DNA from: Saccharopolyspora sp. NFXS83
GTDB taxonomy: Bacteria > Actinomycetota > Actinomycetes > Mycobacteriales > Pseudonocardiaceae
Length of the DNA: 64,000 nucleotides
Assembly (NCBI RefSeq): GCF_026241095.1
Contig: NZ_JAPFGB010000017.1
Location: 62,001 to 126,000, forward strand
Reading direction: 5' to 3'
Of the stretch, positions 45,017 to 52,740 are shown piece by piece (position 1 is the first letter of the stretch; each line of letters opens with the position of its first letter). The position numbers and the translations under genes are program-made. The notes beneath the pieces were generated by a model. The model was not told the DNA's origin. It was given only the letters and a program-made list of their open reading frames with translations, and did not search any database.

Positions 45017-46213
45017 TCACGCCCGTCCGGACGCCGGTTCGCCGGCGGGCCGCGGGCGCACCGCGTTCGCCGCGACCGCGACCAGCAGCGCCAGCGCGGC
45101 GGGCACCGCCAGTCCCACCGACAGGCCGAAGCCCTGCGCGAGCAGGCCGATGAACACCGGGCCCGCGAGCAGACCGCCGTAGGACAACGTGCTGACCTGC
45201 GCCAAGTCCCGTCCGCTGCGGGCCGGGTCGCGGTGTCCGGCGGCGCTGAAGATCTGCGGCACGATGCACGAGAGCCCGACGCCGAACAGCGCGAACCCGG
45301 CCAGCGCCGCCACCGGGTGGTGCAGCAGCAGCGCCACCCCGAGCCCGGTGCCCGCGATCACGCCGCAGACCCGGACCAGCGGCACCGGTCCGAACCGCCG
45401 CACCAGGCCGTCGCCGAGGAACCGGAACAGCCCCATCGTGGCGGAGAACACGGCGTAGCCCAGCGCCGCGAACGCGAGGCTCGAACCGAGCTCGTCGTGC
45501 AGGTACACCGAGGACCAGTCGGCCATCGACCCCTCGCCGACCGAGCAGAAGAACCCGAGCACGCCGAGGAACACGATCGCCATCGGGATGCCGCGGGCGC
45601 GCGCGCCCGACTCGGCGGGCGGCGCCGGCTCAGGCGGCAGCAGCGCGGCCCGCGCGACCAGGGACAGCGCCACCAGGCCCACCCCGGTGAGCGCGAAGTG
45701 CACGGCGGGGCTGAGGCCGAGCTGGGCGGCCAGCGCGCCCGATCCGGCGCCGAGCAGGCCGCCGAGGCTGAACGTGGCGTGGAAGGTGCTCATGATCGGC
45801 CGCCGGTAGCGCTGCTCGACGCGCACCGCGTGCGAGTTCATCGCCACGTCGATCGTCCCGTGCGCGGCGCCGAACACCAGCAGGCCCGCGACCAGCGTCG
45901 GGAGACCTCCCGCGAGCCCCGGCGTCACCCCGGACAGGGCGACCAGCACCCCGGCGGGCGGCATCACGCGGGCACTGCCGAACCGGTCGGTGAGGTGTCC
46001 GCAGACCTGCATGGCCAGCACCGATCCGGCGGCGACCGCGAACAGCGCCAGCGTCACCCCGGCGTCGTCGAGACCCAGGTCCCGCTTGATGGTGGGGATG
46101 CGCGCCGTCCAGGACGCCAGTGCGAAGCCGCTCACCACGAAGTACGCGGTCACCGCCCAGCGCGCGCGCCGCAAGGTCGCGTCCGGCTCGACCGGGGTAG
46201 TCGTCTCGGGCAC
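45017..46213 (-). CDS. MFS transporter
   Basis: This 398-residue protein has twelve predicted helices of the major facilitator type. The loop between helices 2 and 3 reads GHLTDRFGSARV, matching the MFS G-x-x-x-D-R-x-G-x-R pattern. The overall sequence resembles the fucose/YbjJ-like subgroup seen in actinomycetes; the substrate is unknown. GTG 46213 is chosen after AGGAGAG at about eight bases; upstream codons in the ORF are not conserved. It is divergent from the DHOD-like gene. Confidence 0.88.
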   Translation of the reverse strand: MPETTTPVEPDATLRRARWAVTAYFVVSGFALASWTARIPTIKRDLGLDDAGVTLALFAVAAGSVLAMQVCGHLTDRFGSARVMPPAGVLVALSGVTPGLAGGLPTLVAGLLVFGAAHGTIDVAMNSHAVRVEQRYRRPIMSTFHATFSLGGLLGAGSGALAAQLGLSPAVHFALTGVGLVALSLVARAALLPPEPAPPAESGARARGIPMAIVFLGVLGFFCSVGEGSMADWSSVYLHDELGSSLAFAALGYAVFSATMGLFRFLGDGLVRRFGPVPLVRVCGVIAGTGLGVALLLHHPVAALAGFALFGVGLSCIVPQIFSAAGHRDPARSGRDLAQVSTLSYGGLLAGPVFIGLLAQGFGLSVGLAVPAALALLVAVAANAVRPRPAGEPASGRA

Positions 46214-46524
46214 CGGTTGTCCTCTCCTGTCCGCCTGGTGGCGCTCGTCGGCCCGCGGTTCCCGCGCTCGCCGTGGATTCCCGCCTCGCCGCACATCCCA
46301 CACAGCGCCACGGCCGGGCGAGGAACGCGGGTGGACGTCCGGCTCGGACCGAGTCGTCCGCCTGTTCGACTCCAACTGATCACCGCGGCACCGCGCCTGT
46401 GAAGGGGACGAACGGGTGAGGGACAATGGTGGCGGCATCGAGCGCCGGAGATCCCGGCACGCGCACCGAGACCGGCGGGCACCGGAGGCGGCGGTGCGGC
46501 CGGGCGGCGATGGAGGAGGAGACC
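46214..46524. other. divergent intergenic region, MFS / DHOD-like genes
   Basis: This 311-base stretch holds the two divergent ribosome sites and presumably promoters. I saw no clear operator, riboswitch or hairpin in it. Confidence 0.4.
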
Positions 46525-47547
46525 GTGAGCGTGGCCCAGGAGCGAAATCTTCGGGTGGTGCGGGACGAACCCCGTGCGCCCGCCGTCCGGCTCGGTGACG
46601 TCCACCTGCGCAACCGGCTGGTCACCTCGTCCAGCCTGCTGGGCTACGGCGTCGCGAACGCGAGCCTGGTGCCCTACGGCATGAGCCCGATCTCGAAGTT
46701 CGTGCCGCTGGACCGGTTCGGCGCGATCACCACCCGCACCGTCACCGTCGAGCCGCGCGAGGGCCACTTCACCACCCAGGACGTGTGGCCGCTGCACGAG
46801 CTCCCGGCGCTGCTCAAGCGCTACGGCGAGGCGCTGCGGCAGGTCGACGGCGGCTGGTTGAACGCGTTCGGCTGGTGCAACGTCGGCATCGACGCCTACC
46901 TGCGCGACTACTACCCGCGCACCCGCCGCCAGAACACGATCATCTCGGTGGGCGGGTTCTCCCCCGAGGAGTTCGTCACGCTCGTCGACAAGGTCAACAA
47001 GGCGGTGCCCGCCGGGGACATCGCGGCCGTCGAGTTCAACGTGTCCTGCCACAACGTGAACTTCGACTTCAACGCCATCATCGAGCAGGTGCTGGCGCAG
47101 GCGGTGCCGCGCAGCAACCACCCGGTGATCCTCAAGCTCTCCTCGGACTACGACTACATCGGCCACGCCAAGCTCGCCGCCAAGCACGGGGTGTCCGCGC
47201 TGACCGCGATCAACACGGTCAAGGGCCTGCGGCTGGACCCGAACACCGGGCAGCCGCTGCTGAAGAACGGTTTCGGCGGGCTCTCCGGGCGGGCGATCAA
47301 GCCGATCGGGCTGCGCGTGGTGAAGGAGCTGCGCGACTCCGGCTCGAAGCTGCCGATCATCGCCACCGGCGGCATCCGCAGCTTCGACGACTGCCGCGAG
47401 TACTTCTGGGCGGGCGCCGACGCCGTGAGCATGGGCAGCGCCAGCTGGTTCGCCAGCTACCCCGGCTACGCGCTCTCCCCGGTGCACGCCGCCCGGATCC
47501 GCAGCGTCCTGCGCCGCATCGAGCACTACCGCCCGCCGAACGGCTGA
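46525..47547 (+). CDS. class 1 dihydroorotate dehydrogenase-like FMN enzyme
   Basis: This 340-residue TIM-barrel protein matches the DHOD family. It keeps the class-1 catalytic loop (FNVSCHNVNFDFN, Cys present, usually NxSCPN), the FMN-phosphate binding IATGGIRSFDDCREY, and the Lys in LKLSSDYDYIG. Actinobacteria normally use a membrane class-2 PyrD, so this is probably a secondary enzyme, perhaps with a different substrate. GTG 46525 is chosen because GGAGGAG (46512-46518) is at the right distance. No pyrimidine genes are nearby. Confidence 0.8.
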   Translation: MSVAQERNLRVVRDEPRAPAVRLGDVHLRNRLVTSSSLLGYGVANASLVPYGMSPISKFVPLDRFGAITTRTVTVEPREGHFTTQDVWPLHELPALLKRYGEALRQVDGGWLNAFGWCNVGIDAYLRDYYPRTRRQNTIISVGGFSPEEFVTLVDKVNKAVPAGDIAAVEFNVSCHNVNFDFNAIIEQVLAQAVPRSNHPVILKLSSDYDYIGHAKLAAKHGVSALTAINTVKGLRLDPNTGQPLLKNGFGGLSGRAIKPIGLRVVKELRDSGSKLPIIATGGIRSFDDCREYFWAGADAVSMGSASWFASYPGYALSPVHAARIRSVLRRIEHYRPPNG

Positions 47548-47638
47548 TCGGGTGGTCCCTCCCCGAAATCCGGGGATGGCGGGCCCGCTGCACCGCTAAC
47601 TTCCGTGGTTCGACGTCGTCGGATCGGGGAGGTGCCGG

Positions 47639-50600
47639 ATGGCGGGTCTGGACGACGACGTGGGTCTCGTCGGCCGGGAGACCACGGCCGAGCTGATCGA
47701 CCACTTGGTGCTGCACGTGCGGGACCGGCCGATGCCGATCGTGGTGCTGCACGGCGCGGGCGGTGTCGGCAAGACCGCCGTGATCGAGCACGTGGAACGG
47801 CGCTACGACAAGGCCGTGCCGATGGCGCGCGTCGACTTCGACGAACCCCGCTCCAAGAGCACCTGGGACGTGCTGGAGGCGGTGTACCGGCAGCTCGGCG
47901 CCGAATCGCACCGCGAATTCGGCAGGCTCGTGCTGCCGCGCTACGAACTCGCCCGCACCGTCCACGCCACGCTGCGCTCGCCGGAGCACGGACCGGTCGC
48001 CGAGGGCGAAGCCGAGCGCGGCGAACCGGCCGAGGTCGCGACCTCCGCGCAGCGCCGCCGCCAGGTCCGGGAACAGCTCGCACGACGGCTCGCCAGCGTG
48101 GAGCTGATGACCGACGTGGTGGGGGAGGCCGGTGACTCGGCCCCGGCGCCGGTCGCGGGCCTGCTGCTGCGGATGGCGCGCCCGGTCCTGCACCGGCTCA
48201 CCGCGATCGGGGTGGGGGCGCCGCGCTGGGCGCGGTGGTTGCTCGCCGGGCCGCGCAGCGCCGCCGCGCTGAGCTGGTTCGAGGCCGCGGCGGCCGAGCC
48301 GCAGCACTTCGAGGGGATCAGCGACCGGGTCCGCATCGACGACGTGGTGCTGCACATCCAGGGCCGGTTCGAGTCCTCCGACGCTCGCGCGGCCGAATCC
48401 GCCGACAAGTGGCACCGGCTCGCGCTGGCGGCGCTGCTGGCCGATCTGCGCGCCGCCTACCTGCGCAGGCGTACGCGCACGGTGAACTGCGTGCTGCTGC
48501 TCGACGACGCGGACCTGCTCTCCCCGGACAAGGCGGAGCGGGTGGCGCTGAGCACGCCGCCCACCGAGCCGGGCGGGGACCCGGACTTCCTGGACCTGCT
48601 CGCGGAGGCGATGCGGGCCGACCCGCGGATTCCGCTGCTGGTGGTGGCGACCAAGCAATCCGGTGCCCCGGCGGGCGCGGCCGTGGAGCCCGCCGCACCG
48701 GGAACCGACCCGGAGCGGACGTGGCGGCGCCGGTACGACGAGTGGGCGGAGCAATTCCGCGGTGACGGGCCGCGGACGCCCGAACTTCCCGTTCAGCTGA
48801 CGAACTTCGGTCTGGAGGACACCCGCCGGTTCTTCATCGAACGCAGCCGCAGCGAAGAGGCCACCGTGCTCAGCGAGCGGTACGTGCGCGAACTGCACTG
48901 CGCCACGCACGGCCACCCGCTGGCGCTGACGCTGGTCAGCGACCGGATCGACTGGAGCTTCCGCCGGGACCGCCGGGTTCCGTCGGCGCGTTCCACCCTG
49001 GGCATGCGGGTCCCGCCTGGCTTGCGCGGCGCGGACCTGGAGGACACCGTCCGCGGCTACCTGCTGATGCGGATGCTGCACCGCTTCAGGACGAACGCGC
49101 CGTCGGAGGACGAGGACGTGGACGACGGGGTGCGCGACCGCACGGTCACCCTGTTCGCCAAGCTGGCCGCGCCGCTGCTGCTCGACGAGCCGGTGGTGCG
49201 GTTGCTCGCCGGTGACCGCGGTTCCGGCGGCGTGCGGCAGATCACCGAGGCGCTGGACATCCTGAGCTTCGTGCGACCGGGACCGGTGGAACCGGGCGGG
49301 AACCGGACCTGGACCCTCGATCCGCTGCTGCGCGACCTCCTGGTGCGGGAGCTGCTCGACAGATCCGACCACTCCTACGAGCAGGTCCACCGGGACCTGG
49401 CCGAGCACTACGAATCGATCGAGCGGCACGACCCGGCGGCCTACCTGCGCGCCCAGTACCACCGGCTCGCGCTCGGGGAGGTCGGCCGCGTCGCCAAAGT
49501 GCTGGCCAACCGCGCCGGCAGCGGTGACGTGAGCTGGCAGCGCGACTTGGCCCGAGTGCTGGCGTGGGCGCCGGTCGCGGTGTTCCGGCGGCCGTACCAG
49601 GTGCGCGACCTGGTGCAGCGCGCCTGGTCGCCGGTGGCGCGCGGCGAGAGCGCCGAGGCCATCGCGGACCTGCTGCGGGCCGTGCAGGCGCTGTGCTCCT
49701 GCACGGTCGTGGGGCCGTGGGACGACAAGGCGTTCGCGGAGGTCGCCCGCGCGCAGCGGGAAGCTCCCGGCACGGTGGGCGTCGACCTGGGGAAGTGGAA
49801 CTCCGCGTTCGCGCGGCTGCGCCCGCTGAACTCGCAGGACGAACGGGGACTGCCGGACAGCTCGGCGGCGAACCGCAAGTTCGGCTACCCGGTGGTGTGG
49901 CCGCGGCGGGGCACGATCCCGCGGTTCACCGCGGTCGCGCTGGTGCTGGCGCTCGTCGGCTACGGCTCCGCATTCGCCGTGCATTCGGTGTGGGACTGCG
50001 ACGAGGACGGCAGCCCGTGGGACGTGGCCGGGATCGGCCGCTCCGCCCTCCGCGATCCGCTGCGGCTGACGAAGGCGGGTACCCAGTGCATCGGCGTGAC
50101 CGACCGCCCCAGCTCGTTCACCGCGGCGGCCGAGGAACCGTCCGCGGCCACCGAGGAGATCGCCGCGCTGACGGCCGAAGCCGTGGCCGAGAACGGCAGG
50201 GTCGCTCGCGAGAAGGACCCGCACCGCCGCCGGCCGCTGGTCAAGATCGTCGTGGCGACCATGCTCAGCAGCACCCAGGAGGGCGAGCGCCGGGAACTTG
50301 CCGTCGGCGTCAACGAATTGCGCGGGGCGGTGCTCGCGCAGCGGGAGTGGAACGGCGGGGAGCTGGTCGACAAGCACACCCCGGACGTGAAGGTGCAGTT
50401 GCTGTTCGCCAATCTCGGTGGCAGCTCCGAGCACGCCTTCGACGTGGCCGGTGCCGTGCGCGCGCTGGCGAAGCGGGACCCGTCGATCGTGGCGGTCACC
50501 GGGCTCGGGCAGAGCCGCACCACCACGGTCGACGCGGTCGAGCGGCTGGGCGCTCCGCCAGACGACGCGGGTGCGCCGGTGCCGATGATCGCCTCCGCGG

Positions 50601-51517
50601 CCTCGGGCACCGCGTTGACCGGCAAGCCCTGGTTCTTCCGGATCGCCGCGACCAATCAGCGGCAGGCCGAGGTCGCGGTGCGGTACGGCTCCGAGGAGTT
50701 CCCGGATCGCGCGGTGCACGTGCTCAGAGATGACGACGACGCCTACAGCGAAGATCTCTCCACGTGGCAGATCAACGAGCTCGTGGCTCGCAAGAAGTGG
50801 CCCGACATCAAGAGGTTCACCCCGTCGTCGGACTCGCTGAGCACCAGGATCGAGGAGATCTGCGGGCAGGACCGGCCGTTGATCTACTACAGCGGTCGCG
50901 CCAACGACTTCCCGGTGATGCTGAACAAGCTCAAGGACGTCGACTGCGCTGAGCGCGCCGTGGTGATCGCCGGGGACGACCTCACCCAGTTCGCCAACGG
51001 GGAATGGGAGGACGCGAATTCGGTCCCCGGTGGTTATCCGCCGGAACGGCTGTTCTTCACCAGTCTCGGCCCGAGCGCCCCGGCGCCGGGCGATCCGGGG
51101 TGGGCGCAGGGGCTGTGCGATGGGCCGGAGCCGATCCGAGGTCACCAGCGGTGCCGCTTCTTCGTGAGCTACGAGCGGCTCGAAGCGGAGCCGAGCCCCC
51201 ACATCGCGGGCACCGGCCCGAACGGGCACGTGCTCGTCGCCTACGACGCGGTGCACCTGGCGCTGCGGTCGGCGGAGCGGGCGCAGGGGGCCGAGGGCGC
51301 CGCTGTGCCGTCGCGCCGCGGTGTGCTGGAAGAACTGCGCGGCACCAGCGGCTCGGAGGCGTTCGCGGGAACGGCCGGGCTGGTCGATTTCGGCGTGCCG
51401 TCGCCGGGACGTGGTGGGGCCGACCCGCAGCGGAAGCTGATCGTGGTGCAGAGCATCGACATCGCCGGGGACGAGGTGGCCGGTGCCGAGGTGGTCGACC
51501 ACGACGGGCAGCCGTGA
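47639..51517 (+). CDS. STAND-like ATPase / transmembrane / periplasmic-binding fusion
   Basis: The 1292-residue protein has three parts. Part 1 is cytoplasmic: a P-loop NTPase with Walker A GAGGVGKT (39-46), Walker B VLLLDDADLL (about 283-292), and a helical/winged-helix-type region to about residue 745 (STAND-like). Part 2 is a single transmembrane helix at about 758-780. Part 3 is outside: a type I periplasmic-binding domain resembling LivJ/branched-chain-amino-acid receptors (about 862-1290; TGLGQSRTTTVDAVERLGAP and PMIASAASGTALTG are typical). It therefore looks like a membrane receptor: ligand outside, NTPase switch inside. No ABC permease genes are adjacent. ATG 47639 follows GGGGAGG. 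Confidence 0.85.
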   Translation: MAGLDDDVGLVGRETTAELIDHLVLHVRDRPMPIVVLHGAGGVGKTAVIEHVERRYDKAVPMARVDFDEPRSKSTWDVLEAVYRQLGAESHREFGRLVLPRYELARTVHATLRSPEHGPVAEGEAERGEPAEVATSAQRRRQVREQLARRLASVELMTDVVGEAGDSAPAPVAGLLLRMARPVLHRLTAIGVGAPRWARWLLAGPRSAAALSWFEAAAAEPQHFEGISDRVRIDDVVLHIQGRFESSDARAAESADKWHRLALAALLADLRAAYLRRRTRTVNCVLLLDDADLLSPDKAERVALSTPPTEPGGDPDFLDLLAEAMRADPRIPLLVVATKQSGAPAGAAVEPAAPGTDPERTWRRRYDEWAEQFRGDGPRTPELPVQLTNFGLEDTRRFFIERSRSEEATVLSERYVRELHCATHGHPLALTLVSDRIDWSFRRDRRVPSARSTLGMRVPPGLRGADLEDTVRGYLLMRMLHRFRTNAPSEDEDVDDGVRDRTVTLFAKLAAPLLLDEPVVRLLAGDRGSGGVRQITEALDILSFVRPGPVEPGGNRTWTLDPLLRDLLVRELLDRSDHSYEQVHRDLAEHYESIERHDPAAYLRAQYHRLALGEVGRVAKVLANRAGSGDVSWQRDLARVLAWAPVAVFRRPYQVRDLVQRAWSPVARGESAEAIADLLRAVQALCSCTVVGPWDDKAFAEVARAQREAPGTVGVDLGKWNSAFARLRPLNSQDERGLPDSSAANRKFGYPVVWPRRGTIPRFTAVALVLALVGYGSAFAVHSVWDCDEDGSPWDVAGIGRSALRDPLRLTKAGTQCIGVTDRPSSFTAAAEEPSAATEEIAALTAEAVAENGRVAREKDPHRRRPLVKIVVATMLSSTQEGERRELAVGVNELRGAVLAQREWNGGELVDKHTPDVKVQLLFANLGGSSEHAFDVAGAVRALAKRDPSIVAVTGLGQSRTTTVDAVERLGAPPDDAGAPVPMIASAASGTALTGKPWFFRIAATNQRQAEVAVRYGSEEFPDRAVHVLRDDDDAYSEDLSTWQINELVARKKWPDIKRFTPSSDSLSTRIEEICGQDRPLIYYSGRANDFPVMLNKLKDVDCAERAVVIAGDDLTQFANGEWEDANSVPGGYPPERLFFTSLGPSAPAPGDPGWAQGLCDGPEPIRGHQRCRFFVSYERLEAEPSPHIAGTGPNGHVLVAYDAVHLALRSAERAQGAEGAAVPSRRGVLEELRGTSGSEAFAGTAGLVDFGVPSPGRGGADPQRKLIVVQSIDIAGDEVAGAEVVDHDGQP

Positions 51518-51660
51518 ACCGCCCGAAAACGGTGATCTTGGGAAATGCCGATCGGATGAATGATCTCGACACGAACGGGTTGAAGATCGTTGACTTTGCG
51601 AGGCGGTATCTCACCGGCCGAATTCGGTGACGCAGCAGCGTGGTGATCGGGGAGGGGCGC

Positions 51661-52740
51661 ATGTCCGGGTACGGGACGTTCGGGAGCAGCTTGCGGGATC
51701 TGCCGAGGCTCCGGCAGTCCAGGCGGGGGCGGGTGTCCAGCTGGGACCGGACCGGGGGCAACACCGACAACATCCGGCTGCAACCGGGGGAGAGCCGCGA
51801 ACTCGCGCGCCTCACCGGGCCGGGGGCGGTGACCCACGTCTGGTGCACCGTGGCGGTGGAGGACGGGCCGCACAAGCCCGAGGTGGAGGGCGACTACCTG
51901 CGCAGGCTCGTCCTCAAGATCACGTGGGACGACGCGGCGCACCCGAGCGTGCTGGTGCCGCTGGGGGACTTCTTCGGCATCGGCCACGGGCGCACCGAGA
52001 ACTTCGTGTCCGCGCCGCTGCAGATGAGCCCGCAGGACGGCAAGGGGTTCAACTGCTGGTTCGCGATGCCCTTCGCCGAGGGCGCCCGGTTCGAGCTGAT
52101 CAGCGAGATGAGCCTCAAGCCGGTGATCTTCTACTACTACATCGACTACGAGCAGTACCAGCAGGTCGACCCGGAGCTGGGCTACTTCCACGCCCAGTGG
52201 CGCCGCGAAGACCCCACCGACGGAGTGGAGCAGGGCGACCAGACCAACGACGAGTTCCTGTTCGGCGGCATCAACCTCGACGGGACCGGCAACTACACGA
52301 TCCTGGAGGCGGAGGGCCGCGGGCACTACGTCGGGTCGGTGCTCAACGTGCACAACCTGCGCTCCACGACCGACTGGAACTGGTACGGCGAGGGCGACGA
52401 CATGATCTTCATCGACGGTGAGCCGTGGCCGCCGCGGCTGCACGGCACCGGGACGGAGGACTACTTCAACACCGCCTGGTGTCCCAGCCAGCCGTACCAC
52501 GCCCCGTACCACGGGCTCACGTTGCCGGGCGGGCGGAACTGGAGCGGGCAGGTGTCCTACTACCGGTTCCACGTGGAGGACCCGATCACCTTCGACTCCT
52601 CGATCCTGGTGAGCATCGAGCACGGGCACGCGAACAAGCGCAGCGACGACATCTCCTCCGTCGCCTACTGGTACCAGACCCTCCCGTCGAAGCCCTTCGG
52701 CCTCCTCCCCGTCCACGACCGCCTCCCCCGCCCCCTCTGA
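51661..52740 (+). CDS. DUF2961 / GH172 glycoside hydrolase
   Basis: This 359-residue protein matches DUF2961, now glycoside hydrolase family GH172 (alpha-fructofuranosidases and exo-alpha-D-arabinofuranosidases). Characteristic motifs are GPGAVTHVWCTV, PLGDFFGIGHG, DGEPWPPRLHGTGTEDYFN (a conserved Glu-containing stretch in GH172) and RFHVEDPITFDSSI. It has no signal peptide. In a mycolic-acid-type actinomycete the natural target could be D-arabinan or fructans. ATG 51661 follows GGGGAGGG. It lies 143 bases after the receptor-like fusion gene, suggesting joint expression and a sugar-related signal. Confidence 0.85.
   Translation: MSGYGTFGSSLRDLPRLRQSRRGRVSSWDRTGGNTDNIRLQPGESRELARLTGPGAVTHVWCTVAVEDGPHKPEVEGDYLRRLVLKITWDDAAHPSVLVPLGDFFGIGHGRTENFVSAPLQMSPQDGKGFNCWFAMPFAEGARFELISEMSLKPVIFYYYIDYEQYQQVDPELGYFHAQWRREDPTDGVEQGDQTNDEFLFGGINLDGTGNYTILEAEGRGHYVGSVLNVHNLRSTTDWNWYGEGDDMIFIDGEPWPPRLHGTGTEDYFNTAWCPSQPYHAPYHGLTLPGGRNWSGQVSYYRFHVEDPITFDSSILVSIEHGHANKRSDDISSVAYWYQTLPSKPFGLLPVHDRLPRPL

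Follow-up and report, generated by a model that had tools for sequence, protein, structure and literature searches.

A candidate ligand-gated membrane receptor from Saccharopolyspora that joins a STAND-like nucleoside triphosphatase to a type I periplasmic-binding domain

To our knowledge, the STAND switches characterised so far detect their ligands within the cell; MalT, for instance, is soluble and senses inside. In the window analysed here, a stretch of 64,000 nucleotides from Saccharopolyspora sp. NFXS83 (contig NZ_JAPFGB010000017.1, positions 62,001 to 126,000, forward strand), one gene encodes a protein that shares with the MalT-type STAND nucleoside triphosphatases (NTPases) a P-loop, a Walker B motif, a putative winged-helix region and a helical arm, all in the same order; however, its chain continues via a transmembrane (TM) helix to an outer binding domain. 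The closest mention of such an arrangement found in the open-access literature is one sentence on periplasmic-binding protein (PBP) domains in the EACC1 two-gene systems: according to the available part of that source, some second-gene proteins, actinobacterial ones included, consist of TM helices followed by a C-terminal extracellular PBP domain (Kaur et al. 2020, PMC7159879). The constant domain of these systems, however, is a caspase or a cyclic nucleoside monophosphate (cNMP) cyclase (PMC7159879, same part). The window protein has no Pfam match to a caspase or a cNMP cyclase, no search having been aimed at the EACC1 gene itself. In the GlnH-GlnX-PknG system of actinobacteria, a PBP signals to an internal enzyme instead of serving transport, although this system uses a separate lipoprotein PBP, the four-TM protein GlnX and a kinase output (PMC9769921, available part). 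Inactive STAND domains have been described as proposed nucleic-acid sensors, in a source whose available part does not mention PBPs (PMC8195603). No description of a STAND NTPase connected with a receptor of PBP type was found in the open-access literature, a coverage that most subscription papers fall outside.

The window protein is probably a ligand-gated, outside-in STAND receptor that passes the membrane once. This proposal builds on a computed domain order and its conservation, the likely sidedness of the chain, the fold of its outer part and the kinship of its inner half with the paired NTPase genes. The LivK-type outer domain would close on a small ligand, and the single TM helix would pass this change to the helical arm and the winged helix of the inner STAND-type NTPase. 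The ligand state would in this way set the nucleotide state of the STAND core, which, by analogy with other STAND proteins, might self-assemble and engage a downstream partner; the ligand class, the coupling, the nucleotide cycle, the oligomerisation and the output are all proposed in this sense. The sensor would lie across the membrane from the STAND switch, the two halves forming one chain here and two adjacent genes in many relatives, and such a protein would connect an external small molecule directly with an NLR-like switch. The features of the gene are as follows.

47639..51517, plus strand: whole gene, 1292 amino acids, STAND-like NTPase, TM helix and type I binding domain (open reading frame call; profile and family alignment)
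47628..47632, plus strand: GGAGG, resembling a ribosome-binding site, six bases 5' of the ATG (sequence)
47753..47776, plus strand: Walker A GAGGVGKT, residues 39-46 (K45 and T46 invariant in 20 rows; AAA_16 2.7e-9)
48146..48295, plus strand: hydrophobic helical part of an insert, residues 170-219 (model helices; hydropathy 1.04)
48494..48520, plus strand: Walker B LLLDDADLL, residues 286-294 (D289 and D292 invariant in 20 rows)
48632..48658, plus strand: strand PLLVVATKQ, residues 332-340, at a position that may correspond to sensor 1 (conserved across 20 rows)
48905..48925, plus strand: motif THGHPLA, residues 423-429, which we take to be the motif named GxP (G425, H426 and P427 invariant in 20 rows)
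49121..49360, plus strand: winged-helix-like region, residues ~495-574 (helix-helix-helix-strand-strand in the model; MalT alignment)
49361..49861, plus strand: helical arm, residues ~575-741 (model)
49913..49996, plus strand: single TM helix, residues 759-786 (hydropathy; model)
49997..50089, plus strand: outer cysteine pair C787 and C817 with a CxGV motif (Cys in 20 of 20 rows and in 17 of 17 modules)
50237..51508, plus strand: type I periplasmic-binding (LivK-like) domain, residues ~867-1290 (model; structure and profile matches)

The original prediction, made from the DNA letters, had placed a full type I periplasmic-binding domain after the helix, and a model of residues 735-1292 built from a 20-row alignment indeed shows the complete fold, with a predicted local distance difference test score (pLDDT) of 81.4 and a predicted template modelling score (pTM) of 0.86. 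The model has 969 PDB matches at E<=0.001, the best of which is LivK (3td9, E 3.5e-18, TM-score by target 0.79), and it also matches LivJ and the outer domains of class C G-protein-coupled receptors. A sequence profile search of the PDB found 3td9 at 1.2e-7 across a short C-terminal stretch, and profile alignment of the outer domain with E. coli LivK/LivJ gave a probability of 57.5% (E 1e-4). In Pfam, the window protein stays below the cut-offs of Peripla_BP_6 (17.1 bits vs 31.7) and ANF_receptor, which is a limit of these models; the type I fold itself is present in the predicted structure. S989, Y1036 and R1087 align with T102, Y150 and Y202 of LivK, residues which we take to line the amino-acid pocket of LivK. 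Among 17 divergent modules, all 17 have S or T at position 989 and Y at position 1036, and 16 have R at position 1087; S959 (16 of the 17 with S or T) and D1114 (16 with D and a single one with E) are conserved as well. The alignment does not place the latter two on S79 and E226 of LivK: S959 falls on C78 and R960 on S79, and E226 aligns with A1119, with a six-residue gap immediately ahead. The outer ligand is probably an amino-acid-like small molecule, and the arginine at 1087, where LivK has tyrosine, may favour an acidic one. In contrast to LivK and LivJ, the window domain lies C-terminal to a TM helix anchor and contains two invariant cysteine pairs. Because its pocket is conserved, the isolated outer domain lends itself to ligand discovery.

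The conservation of these LivK-like pocket residues would also suit a nutrient sensor that tunes metabolism in the manner of GlnH-GlnX-PknG, in the absence of any switch-type assembly, and a PBP-to-kinase cascade for aspartate and glutamate has been described in Corynebacterium (PMC9769921, available part). However, the binding domain here has a STAND-like NTPase as its partner instead of a kinase, and GlnH exists as a chain of its own; we regard a sensor of this type as rather doubtful.

Hydropathy analysis revealed one strong helix at residues 763-781 (mean 2.06, next best window 1.44), and the model extends it to 759-786, in agreement with the predicted single helix at about 758-780. The 15 residues preceding it contain more lysine and arginine than the 15 residues following it in 20 of the 20 rows covering the region. 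Cysteines 787, 817, 1075 and 1103 are cysteine in 20 of 20 rows, and no all-cysteine column is found N-terminal of the helix, a distribution that fits an oxidised outer side; the four presumably pair into disulfides. Because of the charge bias and the restriction of invariant cysteines to the part after the helix, the NTPase is placed inside and the binding domain outside. Both patterns agree on halves at opposite sides of the membrane, as had been predicted, and the same-side outcome did not appear.

An ATPase and a binding domain of the type used by ABC transporters on one chain could be read as a transport protein in which the ATPase is joined to its own substrate-binding domain. However, the chain has one TM helix only, the Pfam scan found no ABC domain in it, and the 16 neighbouring frames that were scanned, one of which had no match at all, contain no ABC transporter gene and a single permease, a major-facilitator gene two genes upstream of the receptor gene (45017-46438, minus strand). 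The statement of the original prediction that no transporter genes are adjacent holds for ABC transporters in the scanned frames; the major-facilitator gene, however, lies close by. A transport function is very improbable, and we rejected a transport ATPase on account of the single TM helix and the lack of an ABC domain and of an ABC permease in the scanned frames. Likewise, an ABC substrate-binding protein was rejected, as the domain is joined to a TM helix and an NTPase and no ABC gene occurs in the 16 frames.

The Walker A and Walker B motifs were found, as claimed earlier, in the first 300 residues. The window protein exceeds the Pfam cut-offs of AAA_16 (2.7e-9, 38.2 bits vs 32.6) and AAA_22 (29.5 bits vs 27). 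A model of residues 1-790 (pLDDT 75.7) contains, in this order, the core, a long helical insert (~75-273), the GxP motif, a helix-helix-helix-strand-strand unit, the helical arm and the TM helix. Walker B mostly reads LLLDGADLL across the family; GHP is kept in 20 of 20 alignment rows and also in the 21 rows with letters at this place in a second alignment. Residues 389-625 align with residues 185-380 of E. coli MalT (E 2.5e-4), the P-loop regions of both proteins give a weak second match, and seven controls (rpoH, malP and five shuffled MalTs) scored E of at least 0.25 against the inner half. In profile searches of the PDB, the winged-helix-like region matched 8bob weakly (E 0.11) and the best match of the inner half was a designed phosphate-loop protein, over the P-loop only (4.5e-5); a PDB search with the single sequence gave 0 matches. 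The first four of the sub-threshold Foldseek rows for the N-terminal half, which served as a hint only, are three CED-4 structures and one plant NLR, and RuvB, AVAST5 and Dark occur within the first ten, interspersed with unrelated rows. The protein has a weak fold likeness to NACHT/NLR-like proteins (CED-4, Avs), but no effector domain was found N-terminal of its P-loop, and it matches no Avs or Qat family profile beyond the P-loop. Taken together, the support for a STAND-like inner half, as originally proposed, is good but not complete; a non-STAND transport ATPase did not emerge.

With a profile built from 17 TM-PBP modules, the module was detected in 76 of the 150 genomes analysed from this family and in 61 of 296 genomes of the class, the genome under study being part of both samples. 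From these, 80 loci were picked by hand for a census, mostly high-scoring ones and not at random (60 of the 138 listed family rows and 20 of the 97 listed class rows), leaving out the window-type fusions (family A) and most relatives already in the data set. At 50 of the 80 loci, the gene directly upstream encodes a STAND-like NTPase related to the head of the window protein, once in a form that lacks the P-loop: in 46 of these pairs, the upstream gene was recognised by a profile match (GK[ST] being present in 34 and absent from 12), and of the other four, L093 has the P-loop-less upstream head and L113, L131 and L137 were judged by eye. In six loci, the module is fused to a P-loop head, one of which (L119) is a NACHT domain by Pfam; L087 alone matched the head profile at 1e-3, and the heads of L090, L091, L098 and L104 are STAND-like by eye. 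Two loci have TIR plus protein kinase heads, and one (L070) was left unclassed. The genome under study contains four modules, namely the window gene, two pairs, C34 (E 6.7e-35 for the NTPase profile and 7.8e-30 for the receptor) and C6 (L095), and a P-loop-less fusion (L116). The original description of a one-protein receptor hence applies to the window gene, but the commonest sampled form is two adjacent genes, two such pairs being present in the same genome. The window gene resembles a fusion of the two members of a gene pair, receptor plus switch, which related bacteria often possess, and the occurrence of the same module with NACHT or TIR-plus-kinase heads supports the proposed outside-in receptor. 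It is tempting to speculate, if tentatively, that outside-in STAND receptors, existing as fused, paired and P-loop-less forms, make up a class that is widespread in actinobacteria and hitherto undescribed, in which one conserved extracellular amino-acid-type sensor module gates NLR-like switches, kinases or TIR domains inside, so that an external small molecule would control NLR-like assembly at the membrane.

Among the individual loci, L143:3040-6534 and L144:868-3801 combine TIR_2, a protein kinase, a TM helix and the same outer module in one chain. L119:851-4492 joins a NACHT domain (31.3 bits, cut-off 26.7) with several hydrophobic stretches to the TM-PBP module, and L056 has yet another head, which has no Pfam match.

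Several results weigh against a ligand-gated STAND switch. The confidence of the N-terminal model is moderate (pTM 0.71), Foldseek found no match to it at E<=0.001, and the MalT alignment of residues 389-625 has a probability of only 43%. The Pfam scan found no known effector domain in the chain, and no conserved partner gene emerged: not one of the 19 other genes around the window gene reappears beside the 21 loci found by a scan of named genomes. Furthermore, 21 of the 80 census loci have the module fused to a P-loop-less relative of the window head, and about 10 of 47 paired NTPases have arginine for the P-loop lysine, by a loose pattern, some hits of which (L136, L128) appear to be due to chance. 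The P-loop-less head is homologous to the window head across residues 12-396 (hhalign E 3.8e-22; five shuffles and one reversal gave E of at least 0.17), and its subgroups taken singly gave E values from 3.6e-13 to 6.7e-5, L055 across 40 columns only. The loss of the P-loop in these heads and its arginine variants show that the nucleotide cycle is not universal, and since related families keep the receptor and have lost the P-loop, such receptors do not all require NTP. The same findings would also fit an NTPase half that is a scaffold devoid of a working nucleotide cycle; the ligand would then rearrange a dimer, with the head acting as a docking platform. However, every row of the window family that covers Walker A, Walker B and GHP keeps these motifs intact, which argues for selection on nucleotide binding, and a pure scaffold is an unlikely explanation for the window protein. 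Paired, fused and P-loop-less versions provide natural tests of the role of the nucleotide cycle. Upstream NTPases with arginine in the P-loop were noted in L077, L109, L126, L127, L129 and L138, which belong to several lineages.

The insert, which sits between strand 2 and Walker B, has a hydropathy of 1.04 at residues 170-219 and of up to 2.13 in relatives; it reaches 1.8 in eight of the 21 P-loop-less heads vs three of 47 paired NTPases, and in L055 it contains two likely TM helices. Because the insert is hydrophobic in some relatives, the NTPase core might lie near the membrane, and membrane contact of residues 170-219 is possible.

A protein search found matches in 41 of the 150 family genomes, and the full-length order, for which a search had been suggested, in 15, the genome under study included. 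The named-genome scan, which overlaps with this sample so that the counts are not additive, yielded 21 loci, 18 of them full-length uninterrupted frames; L042 (Lentzea atacamensis) is interrupted and two are contig-end fragments, both from the same metagenome-assembled genome (MAG). The genera are Crossiella, Allokutzneria, Saccharopolyspora, Goodfellowiella, Lentzea, Solihabitans, Umezawaea and Actinopolymorpha, and further sources are one Nocardia, a Dactylosporangium MAG and one bin labelled Melainabacteria. Ten relatives share 36-79% identity with the window protein, and the 21 loci share 34-39% with it; common neighbours of these loci are confined to Lentzea-like genomes, Umezawaea, Goodfellowiella, single pairs of close kin and a few clusters of three to four loci. 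One congener (G137) has, at the same chromosomal place and between the same flanking neighbours, a remnant of 200 residues (L066:5834-6433) that matches residues 1-141 and 1265-1291 and has lost the P-loop lysine; three other congeners gave no match at 1e-10 in the protein search.

Patchy presence and a decayed copy in a congener, together with the NACHT and TIR-plus-kinase versions of the receptor and the faint structural similarity to CED-4, plant NLRs and AVAST5, would be compatible with a receptor for immunity or cell death that senses the outside and otherwise corresponds to the bacterial NLR-like defence proteins. We consider this improbable: PADLOC matches are at the P-loop level only (QatA E 0.043, Avs4 E 0.049), the scanned neighbours are mostly housekeeping genes (riboflavin synthesis, uvrC, rapZ, whiA, glycolysis), and a conserved small-ligand pocket suits nutrient or signal sensing equally. 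Membership in known anti-phage families was rejected on NCBIfam scores of 9.8 bits for both Avs4 (cut-off 1500) and QatA (cut-off 600).

In a FastTree phylogeny of 114 rows with a midpoint root, which omits L042, L052 and several family-B loci and in which the join of L022 and L029 was flagged as suspect, the 20 family-A rows form one clade (support 100) inside a group of 52, to which all 30 P-loop-less fusions belong. Of the 54 paired rows, 53 lie in the other group (62 rows), and the P-loop fusions in that group need two more changes; by this placement, fusion probably arose more than once. If the midpoint root is accepted, an A-like fusion may have given rise to the P-loop-less heads.

The receptor gene is a single open reading frame of 1292 codons with an ATG start, and its third-position guanine-plus-cytosine (GC) fraction is 0.87-0.97 throughout (13 of 13 blocks of at most 100 codons each). 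A tblastn search at 1e-5 gave no match to the gene on plasmids. Directly downstream lies a DUF2961 gene (51640-52740), which also adjoins the gene remnant in the congener. Opposite the receptor gene, an antisense open frame of 1381 codons (47357-51502, minus strand) is probably a mirror or by-product of the high-GC codon bias.

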